Assembly: GCA_019359325.1 (NCBI GenBank)
Contig: JAHHHN010000004.1
Span: 124,001-188,000 of the forward strand
Length of the DNA stretch: 64,000 nucleotides
Direction of reading: 5' to 3'
DNA from: Mojavia pulchra JT2-VF2
GTDB taxonomy: Bacteria; Cyanobacteriota; Cyanobacteriia; Cyanobacteriales; Nostocaceae
Shown piece after piece: positions 23,530-56,840 of the stretch. The translations under genes and the position numbers were made by a program. The notes beneath the pieces are model-generated. The model saw nothing but the letters and a program-made list of their open reading frames with translations. It searched no databases and was not told where the DNA came from. Numbering within the stretch: position 1 is the first letter of the stretch; every line of letters begins with the position of its first letter.

Positions 23530-24968
23530 AAAAGGCTTATTACCATCCCAATTCTGCTTTGCAATTCCCTTGGAATTTAACTCAATGGGGGCTACTAGTC
23601 TTCCCATTGAGTCCCTTTTTAGGGGCTGTATGTATAGTTTTGGCATCTTTAATTACTTGGCAGCGACAATACCGCACCATTGTCCGCCGCCCCCTCAACT
23701 GGGGATTTGCGCTTCTTAGCGTATTACTCATAATTACAGCTGCGTTTGCCTATGACAAAACACCAGCTTTTATCGGTTTATTCAATTTCTTACCATACTT
23801 TATTGTTTTTGCTGGGCTTAGCGCCCTAATTCAGACAATTGCACAATTGCGTCAACTGGCTTGGATTTTGGTAATCGGTTCCGTACCAATAGTAATTCTA
23901 GGCTTGGGGCAATTATTTTTGGGCTGGAGTCTGAATTTTACGTTGTTGTGGGTTGTATTAGAGTGGGCGATCGCACCTGGAGGGCAACCACCAGGTCGCA
24001 TGGCTTCAATATTAATGCACGCCAACACTCTAGCTGCTTATCTAGTTATAGTTTTCATCCTCGGCTTAGGATTGTGGCTAGAACAATGGCAGTTAAGGAT
24101 GAGGACAATTTCCCAATCCCCAATCCCCAGTCCCCAATCCCCAATCCCCAGTCCCCAATCCCCAATCCCCAATCCCCAATCCCCAATCCCCAGCCCCCAA
24201 TCCCCAATCCCCAGTCCCCAATCCCTAATTCCTAATCCCCAATCCCCAATCCCCCTCCTCTTTCTGACCGTGACCGGAATTGCCAACTTCATTGCCCTGA
24301 TTTTTACTAACTCACGCAATGGATGGGCGATCGCAATTTTTGCTTGTTTAGCTTTTGCATTTTACCAAGGTTGGCGGATTCTTGTAGGCGGCGTTGCTAG
24401 TGTCGTTGCTACGGTGCTTTTGGCAGCTTTTGCTCCCTTACCTGTGGCGCAGTTTTTTCGTCAGTTCGTTCCTGCTTTCTTTTGGGCGCGGTTAAATGAT
24501 GATATGTATCCCGACAGACCAGTTGCCTTAATGCGAAAAACCCAGTGGGAGTTTGCCTGGTCTTTAACTCAGCAGCACCCTTGGACTGGTTGGGGTTTAC
24601 GCAACTTCACCGCACTCTACGAAGCCAAGATGCAAATTTCCTTAGGTCATCCCCACAACTTATTTTTGATGCTATCTGCTGAAACTGGTCTGCCGAGTAC
24701 TCTTTTGTTTTGTAGTTTAATCGCTTGGATTTTGACGACATCCATTCAACTACTACGAAACTCAAAATATAAATATATAGATCAAGAAGACAGATTGATA
24801 TTTTTTAGTTATATCGTGGTTCTGTTCGGTTGGTTGCTATTCAATACTGTTGATGTTACCTTATTCGATTTCCGGTTAAATACGCTTTCGTGGTTAATGT
24901 TATCTGCTGTTTGTGGAGTAGTGTATCGCAACAAACAACACTATAGGCTTCAAGCTAATTCAAAGTAG
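23511..24968 (+). CDS. O-antigen ligase (Wzy_C) family membrane protein
   Basis: 485-residue polytopic membrane protein with about 10-12 helices. The Wzy_C/O-antigen ligase signature is in the second half: F-T-N-S-R-N-G-W, then the periplasmic loop ending [17 protein letters not shown], whose His and Arg residues are typical of glycan ligases and polymerases. A loop at about residues 201-250 consists of seven copies of the heptapeptide S-P-I-P-[S/N]-P-Q encoded by the CCCCAAT/CCCCAGT heptamer, so the protein is about 50 residues longer than expected. It overlaps the YaaW-like gene by 19 bp. It may act in polysaccharide assembly, though it lies outside the main glycan locus. Confidence 0.85.
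24114..24256 (+). repeat. STRR1 heptamer array inside a coding sequence
   Basis: About 20 tandem CCCCAAT/CCCCAGT heptamers. Three heptamers make one 21-bp unit, so the array stays in frame and encodes S-P-I-P-[S/N]-P-Q repeats. The same heptamer lies between genes at 28428-28456. Confidence 0.9.
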
Positions 24969-55244: not shown

Positions 55245-55453
55245 AATGTATTTATGTTTTAAACGATACACATAAATTAACCTAGTCCTTACCTCCACGA
55301 AACCAGTGTTAACTGGGAACAAAGTCTCATCAAATTTTCGGAATAATTGAGTAAATTCCCTAATTTACATTGATTTACACTCATTTAGCGGGAAAATCTA
55401 CTTGTGAAAGAAATACCTAACGGTTTCTAACTGCCAAGGCAAATAATAAATTA

Positions 55454-55473
55454 GACTTTTCAAACAACCTCTT
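55454..55473. repeat. Isolated MITE end
   Basis: Reverse complement reads AGAGGTTGTTTGAAAAGT, identical to the left end of the element at 50999-51164. No partner end was found nearby. The tandem array starts 3 bp away. Confidence 0.6.
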
Positions 55474-55476
55474 AAA

Positions 55477-55745
55477 CTTACAAATACGTTGAGCATTTCA
55501 ATAAATGCTTATCCAAAATCAAATTTCATTTAAACAAAACTTACAAACACGTTGAGCATTTCAATAAACGCTTATCCAAAATCAAATTTCATTTAAATAA
55601 AACTTACAAACACGTTGAGCATTTATTGAAATGCTTATGCAAAATCAAATTTCATTTAAATAAAACTTATGAATGCTTGAGGCAAATCAAATTTCACTTA
55701 AGCAAAACTTATGAATAGATTGATCATTTCAACAAATGCTGTGTT
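55477..55745. repeat. 63-bp tandem array with hairpin units
   Basis: Units start at 55477, 55540 and 55603, each exactly 63 bp, followed by a shortened 42-bp unit at 55666 and a degenerate one from 55708. Each full unit contains a hairpin: unit 1 GCATTT-CAAT-AAATGC, unit 2 GCATTT-CAAT-AAACGC, unit 3 GCATTT-ATTG-AAATGC. The unit-3 core is the exact reverse complement of that in unit 1 while its flanks are not inverted. The shared flank is AAATCAAATTTCATTTAAA. No spacers, so not CRISPR. Confidence 0.9.
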
Positions 55746-55805: not shown

Positions 55806-55860
55806 TGTCATTTTGCGCGAAACGCAGATATTTAAGTTTTTCGCTTCGCTCAGAACGACA
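55806..55860. repeat. 55-bp inverted-repeat element
   Basis: Ends TGTCATTTTGCGCGAA and TTCGCTCAGAACGACA are inverted repeats with four mismatches in 16. The right arm with TTCGCTTCGCTCAGAACGAC is a typical short dispersed repeat of Nostoc genomes. Confidence 0.55.
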
Positions 55861-56044
55861 CATTACATAACTGATTCAAGCTGAGTATGATGCGAGCATT
55901 AGTACAGTACGGCGGAAATAAACATACCATTTCAAATGGCGCAAGAGCTTGGAATACAATTCTTTTGACTTTTGACTTTTGACTTCCGCTTTGCGGTACT
56001 AGTGCATCCTGATAAATTTTGCATTTTCTTAAATTCACAATTTT

Positions 56045-56485
56045 TTAGTTGATAAATTTAAAATCTTGCAGGCTTCTGTAACCAATCATCCGGGAGTGCC
56101 TGCTAGTGAACTCCCCCACTGAGGGGTTCCTATGAGGATTAATTACTCCGGTTGCCTGTTGCCAAAGTTCTGCTGGTGCTAGTGACAATTCATAAACAGA
56201 TTCACGCTTACATACGTGATACCACTTAGTTTCTTGGCACTCATCACACCAGAAAGACTCCAACCATTCACCCTCTAAGGGAACCGCGGTCTTGGCTGCC
56301 ACTAACATTAAGGCATCGCGCCGATTCATTCCTCTTTGTTGAAGTTGTCCTGCCCGTTCAGCAAACAACCCAAATTTTTGACTCGTACTATTGATGTAGC
56401 AACCATGTACCGGACAGTATATAGCTCGCCGCTTAGAACGTTTCCGATTTCGGTCACACCTTCTCTGCACTTCGACCCTCCGCAT
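56045..56485 (-). CDS. Hypothetical protein with cysteine pairs
   Basis: 146 residues. Basic N-terminus (R-C-D-R-N-R-K-R-S-K-R-R) followed by C-P-V-H-G-C-Y and later F-W-C-D-E-C-Q-E-T-K-W-Y-H-V-C, which together could form one zinc site of four or more Cys/His ligands. No named family recognised; the overall look is that of a small nucleic-acid-binding protein. ATG at 56485 preferred to a GTG one codon earlier. It is isolated between a repeat-rich region and the GT4 gene. Confidence 0.6.
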   Translation of the reverse strand: MRRVEVQRRCDRNRKRSKRRAIYCPVHGCYINSTSQKFGLFAERAGQLQQRGMNRRDALMLVAAKTAVPLEGEWLESFWCDECQETKWYHVCKRESVYELSLAPAELWQQATGVINPHRNPSVGEFTSRHSRMIGYRSLQDFKFIN

Positions 56486-56840
56486 CACTAAACATAAAAC
56501 AGATCACAAGAAGGTTGCGTTGGAGGGACTGAGATCATAAAGACCATCAAAGCCCAACTCCTAAATCAACGGTTTATTCAGTTTGACCAGTAAAAACTTA
56601 TGAACCAGTGCAAGTTCTAGGGAACATGCTTCACTAACTCTTATACCTAAGCAAGTATACATAGACTTGCTTGTTGAGAGTCTGCATTTGTCAGATTGCA
56701 AAGCAGAACTTCTAGAGCTAGGCGCTCCTAAATGGTAGACGCACTATGTTTATATAGCCGCAAATTACAATTGTCAAGACCAAAGTGAAGATAGATTAAT
56801 ACGGATTCGGTAATTTTGTACGTGATATTACTTAAAATCC
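56486..56840. other. Intergenic region with an operator-like dyad
   Basis: 355 bases between two minus-strand genes. It holds the 24-bp dyad at 56649-56672; otherwise no gene or terminator with a T run was recognised. Confidence 0.5.
56649..56672. promoter_or_regulatory. 8-8-8 dyad, possible operator
   Basis: AAGCAAGT, 8-bp spacer, ACTTGCTT: a perfect dyad of the size bound by dimeric regulators. It lies 160 bp upstream of the cysteine-pair gene. The protein that might bind it is unknown. Confidence 0.35.

Follow-up and report, generated by a model that had tools for sequence, protein, structure and literature searches.

A probable hairpin-loop inversion within a 63-bp tandem array of the cyanobacterium Mojavia pulchra JT2-VF2

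In one unit of a tandem array in the genome of Mojavia pulchra JT2-VF2 (Nostocaceae), the core of a small hairpin reads in the direction opposite to that in the first unit, while the bases around it retain their orientation. What kind of event could turn over a few nucleotides inside a repeat and leave the rest of the unit in place? The array occupies positions 55474–55743 of the window, i.e., the whole 64,000-nt stretch of contig JAHHHN010000004.1 (positions 124,001–188,000, forward strand) that was analysed; the coordinates below are those of the window (Table 1). The unit boundaries agree with the initial annotation as to the exact 63-bp period of units 1–3 and the shortage of exactly 21 bp in unit 4, the missing piece being one module of the unit.

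Table 1. Units of the tandem array and the adjoining terminal repeat (window coordinates)
Feature	Position	Strand	Length and remarks
Unit 1	55474–55536	+	63 bp; loop CAAT at 55499–55502; perfect 7-bp arms
Unit 2	55537–55599	+	63 bp; loop CAAT at 55562–55565; right arm disrupted by one substitution
Unit 3	55600–55662	+	63 bp; inverted loop ATTG at 55625–55628; perfect 7-bp arms
Unit 4	55663–55704	+	42 bp; one 21-bp module, with the hairpin, is absent
Unit 5 (partial)	55705–55743	+	39 bp; ancestral-type loop CAAC at 55730–55733; 5-bp stem
Terminal inverted repeat of a dispersed MITE-like element	55453–55474	+	adjoins the array, sharing its first base

The hairpin core of unit 3 is indeed, as initially proposed, the exact reverse complement of that of unit 1: the inverted match of 55492–55509 to 55618–55635 comprises 18 identities out of 18, and the flanks of the two units are co-oriented. 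The same source had described a 16-bp hairpin in each of the three 63-bp units. The hairpin is present in units 1 and 3, where the exact core measures 18 nt rather than 16, but is not intact in unit 2, whose right arm bears a T>C substitution (AAACGCT) next to a loop of the ancestral type. Since the arms are symmetric, the extent of the flip can be placed anywhere from 4 to 18 nt. Overall, unit 3 displays two features expected of a spacer inversion, i.e., a spacer that is an exact reverse complement (CAAT to ATTG, all four bases differing) and unchanged pairing arms, perfect over 7 bp in units 1 and 3.

The loop flip exceeds chance. Between units 1 and 3 the differences fall at columns 12, 26–29, 40, and 62, and between units 2 and 3 at columns 26–29, 33, and 40; thus, all four loop columns differ between unit 3 and either of the others, against two to three of the 59 remaining columns. 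The hypergeometric chance that six or seven differences include all four loop columns is 2.5e-5 to 5.9e-5. The exact reverse complementarity adds a factor of 1/81, bringing the rough overall chance to 3e-7 to 7e-7, a post hoc estimate that assumes equal site rates and leaves the opportunities to notice such a pattern uncounted. Independent substitutions that yielded a reverse complement by coincidence, although substitutions between the units do happen (the same two to three of 59 sites outside the loop), are extremely improbable in view of this estimate and of the related arrays, where no intermediate loop was encountered.

The latter comparison is based on a gap-free alignment, over 63 columns, of 13 full-length units from four arrays of three genomes (three units from the window, two from array L002, and four each from L006 and L007). 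Every row was found letter for letter in its source; partial units and more distant arrays were left out. Columns 26–29 read C[AG]A[TC] in all 12 units other than unit 3, therefore the ATTG of unit 3 represents the derived state. The search for stepwise loop intermediates, suggested initially as a check on the inversion, returned zero among the 13 aligned units. A derived state reached without intermediates, as judged from the related copies (12/12 other aligned units), is a further feature expected of a spacer inversion. In arrays L009 and L056, CTAT precedes AAATG at the corresponding position.

The same alignment bears on the authenticity of unit 3. Tandem repeats are prone to assembly and sequencing errors, and the genome is a draft of 85 contigs (8.19 Mb), so unit 3 might be an artefact. 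However, column 40 likewise sets unit 3 apart from units 1 and 2: its base there is G, a state shared by the two L002 units and by three of the four L007 units (5/10 outside units); A occupies this column in the remaining five outside units, and C is confined to units 1 and 2. Because of column 40, unit 3 is to be regarded as a distinct unit and no plain copy of unit 2. A four-base inversion would, moreover, be an unusual assembly error, and an artefact is rated as improbable.

Another possibility is that the spacer was acquired from a repeat copy on the opposite strand by gene conversion or by a longer-range template switch. Arrays of this family do occur in both orientations in the genome, and unit 1 holds, on its other strand, the exact 16-mer in question, so that an adjacent unit could serve as the template. 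At the same time, the search of the own 8.19-Mb assembly for the 16-mer GCATTTATTGAAATGC with at most one mismatch revealed four sites, namely units 1, 2, and 3 and one other, which differs by one loop base; no exact copy was found in this assembly outside the array. A conversion tract from unit 2 extending over the right arm would also have brought along the arm mismatch, from which unit 3 is free. Such an origin is considered unlikely. The repeated gene conversion offered initially as one of two explanations is not needed: no donor elsewhere came to light, and unit 1 read from its other strand would be a possible template. The lack of a better donor elsewhere in the own draft assembly, with unit 1 of the array as a possible template, is likewise what is expected of a spacer inversion.

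The right flank was used to search 100 genomes for an empty site; no orthologous array was found among the matches listed, with mostly five candidates scored per genome. The gene at 56045–56488 has relatives in this search, and in the matches listed the alignable portions of the intergenic part were limited to a dispersed repeat and a few bases beside the gene. A dispersed repeat of approximately 100 bp lies at 55900–56002; numerous genomes of the family contain matches to it, and the own genome has at least one further copy.

The other explanation proposed initially, a hairpin-mediated inversion, is favored by the derived and exact character of the change, by the 7-bp stem, by the lack of an exact 16-mer copy elsewhere in the assembly, and by two flipped hairpins in a related genome (see below). 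With a probability of roughly 0.8, the spacer of unit 3 was inverted, most likely by template switching, cruciform-mediated inversion being a nearly equivalent alternative route. The substrate in the array would be the perfect 7-bp inverted repeat around the 4-nt spacer. During replication, the nascent strand would hop onto the other strand within one arm, the spacer would be copied from the wrong strand, and the polymerase would then hop back. The polymerase hops are inferred; probably, a single event was involved, and the flipped loop presumably carries no function. The inversion of a hairpin loop in this bacterial repeat array is real and well supported, and template switching is its most likely cause. 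The locus represents a clean natural case of such an inversion in bacterial intergenic DNA, where the sister copies in the array give the ancestral state. Flips of this kind mimic four clustered substitutions and can mislead both the alignment and the dating of repeats.

Small inversions at chloroplast hairpins were reportedly described by Kelchner and Wendel in 1996. They affect hairpins of the trnH-psbA spacer (PMC2903610); as in the present case, inverted repeats in non-coding DNA flank a small inverted segment, whereas the chloroplast arms measure at least 18 bp and the loops at least 25 bp in most taxa, and the genome is that of an organelle. Spacer inversion by template switching at inverted repeats has been documented in Saccharomyces cerevisiae (PMC8604942). 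The yeast events share with unit 3 the retention of perfect arms, the conversion of a short spacer into its exact reverse complement, and unaltered flanks; unlike the 7-bp arms found here in a mostly non-coding bacterial tandem array, the yeast arms exceed 9 bp and are located in genes. Events confined to loop inversion are also recorded for rRNA hairpins, including those of bacteria (PMC8794818). Here as there, an inverted loop, typically of 4 nt, sits on a perfectly pairing hairpin, but conserved rRNA is concerned in one case and a mostly non-coding repeat in the other, and 85.5% of the cases in that source are typically four-nucleotide, partially reverse complementary loops, whereas all four bases change in unit 3. 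In birds, by contrast, the microinversion hotspots reportedly showed no link to stem-loops (PMC3123225), therefore hairpins are not the sole route to microinversion.

The yeast, rRNA, and chloroplast precedents imply that this kind of event is already known. The characterization of the event as rarely noted is accordingly an overstatement for the mutation type, since loop or spacer inversion is documented in all three sources (PMC8604942, PMC8794818, PMC2903610). For loop inversion in minisatellites specifically, no paper was found by a literature search that was not aimed at that question.

How common such flips are was approached by scanning 2.464 Mb from five genomes, i.e., 864 kb of the own genome including the window and 400 kb from each of four relatives (G029, G033, G068, and G147). 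Repeat copies sharing the inner 6-nt arm and having similar flanks were paired, the criteria being 6-bp arms, at least two loop differences, 28/40 flank identities, and a direct orientation agreeing better than the opposite one. The 379 pairs included 293 with zero to one loop difference and 86 with at least two; among the latter, four pairs representing three hairpins had loops that were exact reverse complements, and the control classes, plain reversals and plain complements, were each represented by 0/86. The window flip is the only one in the own genome (1/11 pairs with at least two differences), no second flip being present among the 54 repeat-hairpin pairs of this sample. Genome G033 contributed the others (3/45), with none in G029 (0/3), G147 (0/24), and G068 (0/3).

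The best flip besides that of the window is the GGT/ACC hairpin of G033 (L209:7148 paired with L223:3535), with 10-bp arms and 39/40 flank identities. The second hairpin of G033 (L210:9669 paired with L218:1778 and L224:2238) has a TTCA/TGAA loop in which two bases differ. In both G033 hairpins, the loop orientation differs from one dispersed repeat copy to another. Several pairs obtained with looser criteria were dropped: pairs with 3-nt loops differing by one base (G029 and G068), pairs with one member aligned to the opposite strand of a longer palindrome (two in G147 and one in G033), and, in G033, GATGA pairs whose arms measured 5 bp.

When 16 array loci were scanned with a minimum stem length of 6 bp, only the window array showed a perfect 7-bp stem at the hairpin position; one unit of L007 has a 6-bp stem with a 5-nt loop at this position. 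On DNA folding, units 1 and 3 reached -5.6 kcal/mol, unit 2 reached -1.7 kcal/mol, and a further 11 real copies, namely unit 5 of the window and ten units of L002, L006, and L007, ranged from 0 to -4.2 kcal/mol. Longer stems are located elsewhere within the units: L005 has one of 13 bp, and L009 and L056 have stems of 11 bp. No flip was seen in these long-stem hairpins of the three arrays, and the loop of the 11-bp hairpin has an identical orientation in L009 and L056 when both are read on a common strand; therefore, a strong stem is insufficient. Since one flip is known from this array family, the link between stem strength and flipping rests on a single event.

The two loop orientations coexisting in one array would also be compatible with a programmed switch operated by a site-specific invertase. 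However, the segment does not exceed 18 bp and its arms measure 7 bp, whereas known invertible segments are far longer. Furthermore, comparison of four flanking ORFs with Pfam (the scan covered these ORFs only) gave two matches, both to sugar enzymes, i.e., a GDP-mannose 4,6-dehydratase-like protein and a group 1 glycosyltransferase. A switch of this kind is hardly credible. The two ORFs nearest the array have no Pfam match.

Other possible roles of the array were also considered. A coding origin of the array was rejected, as no ORF of at least 80 aa with a usual start covers it; one of the six frames is open through 55474–55707, which leaves some room for such an origin. In Rfam, three microRNA families scored 22.0–26.1 bits against gathering scores of 79–114 and were judged to be chance matches. 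The terminator scan returned a single site, at 55812–55828, beyond the array, and the two promoter-like sites do not exceed the shuffle mean of 3.8. A pattern scan of genome contigs resulted in 20 stretches, none with a cyanobacterial title, and was put down to chance.

On its left side, the array borders on the end of a dispersed MITE-like element. This end had been placed 3 bp away; in fact, it abuts the array. The terminal-repeat pattern has 20 matches with at most two mismatches in the own genome, the window copy included, and none when reversed as a control. The window copy matches the MITE-like loci of the own genome in the terminal repeat only, and paired ends elsewhere indicate three likely full copies of 213–214 bp. 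The left flank shares 54 bp (55421–55474) with one Nostoc plasmid and 40 bp with another, both matches ending at or near the terminal repeat, therefore the remnant may exceed the bare MITE-like end.

The array is a mostly non-coding tandem repeat, and related repeats are present in several other members of this cyanobacterial family. The 13-unit model matched, at E ≤ 0.001, 19 of the 192 genomes of the family (own genome included) and 7 of its 56 genera, the weak matches including likely chance matches and an apparent conserved gene; the genus-level search sample was the own genome alone. Four weak, mutually similar matches from genus g7 (L058, L060, L064, and L075) look like a conserved gene and were not used; L065, L066, and L067, with equal match length and a similar score, stand outside that reading.

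The main periods are 63 bp in L002, L006, and L007, 42 bp in L003 and L079, 105 bp in L057, 126 bp together with 63 bp in L005, and 21 bp together with 63 or 84 bp in L059 and L061. The exceptions to multiples of 21 are 62 bp in L009 and L056, as well as 41 and 83 bp, beside 21 and 42 bp, in L063; L059, L061, and L063 (model E of about 1e-4 to 3e-4) may be no true relatives. The circular self-identity of the 63-nt unit over lags 3–31 peaks at lag 21 (26.5/63 against 14.6–22.0 at the others), hence the unit is read as three diverged 21-nt modules, one of which is lacking in unit 4. This lack would most likely result from misaligned pairing of adjacent 21-nt modules. Units of 42 bp without the hairpin-bearing module occur also in L002 and L003.

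By its size, the 21-nt module resembles the small dispersed repeats (SDR) reportedly described by Elhai in 2008 from non-coding DNA of such cyanobacteria, with a size range of 21–27 nt. A resemblance to the heptameric repeats (STRR) of Nostoc consists in being short non-coding repeats of such cyanobacteria (PMC4692102). Unlike them, the array lacks a 7-nt period, its identity being 0.31 at lag 7, 0.26 at lag 14, 0.33 at lag 20, 0.39 at lag 21, and 0.34 at lag 22.

The generality of the 21-bp step was assessed by counting exact 10-mer matches at lags of 15–210 in DNA outside ORFs of at least 100 aa, which is a crude ORF rule. Multiples of 21 made up 72/243 match events in the own genome, 62/161 in G029, 71/242 in G147, 104/434 in G033, and 14/89 in G068, against an expected share of about 5%, the excess arising partly from heptamer arrays. 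Without the arrays of 7-nt period, multiples of 21 among the arrays with periods of at least 15 came to 12/23 in the own genome, 4/7 in G029, 3/16 in G147, 1/7 in G068 (a long unit with a period of 378), and 0/13 in G033; one of the own cases (399) is likewise a long unit. Some stretches had been picked for known family arrays (the window, L137:13406, L144:13575, and L157:6945), and their omission changes the first two fractions to 9/20 and 3/6. Thus, the 21-bp pattern is clear in two genomes and weak or absent in three after the removal of the heptamers.

Prokaryotic satellites are stated to favor generally multiples of 3, interpreted as coding (PMC6749651). In the own genome, the share of 21-multiples among the match pairs amounts to 0.448 in coding and 0.444 in non-coding DNA, and several of the counted arrays have three to five of the six frames open; some of the arrays may be of coding origin. 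It is conceivable that mostly non-coding arrays in part of the family are built and resized by exact 21-bp steps (two helical turns) with the participation of in-module hairpins, the loop flip and the module loss of unit 4 being outcomes of one replication-slippage process, but this broader view is unlikely, given the equal share of 21-multiples in coding DNA and the deliberate choice of some stretches. If true across whole genomes, the 21-bp step would demand a mechanism working in 21-nt blocks; these building blocks are the less explained part of the array. No report of such a step in these cyanobacteria was found by titles and abstract openings, the subscription literature being mostly outside this coverage.

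Tandem arrays of 21 nt with approximately 13 copies are located at positions 1435–1715 of L061 and 1320–1588 of L059, and several of the L061 copies contain GCGATCGC (HIP1). The window itself harbors, at 24112–24254, a long heptamer array of about 20 copies of CCCAATC.
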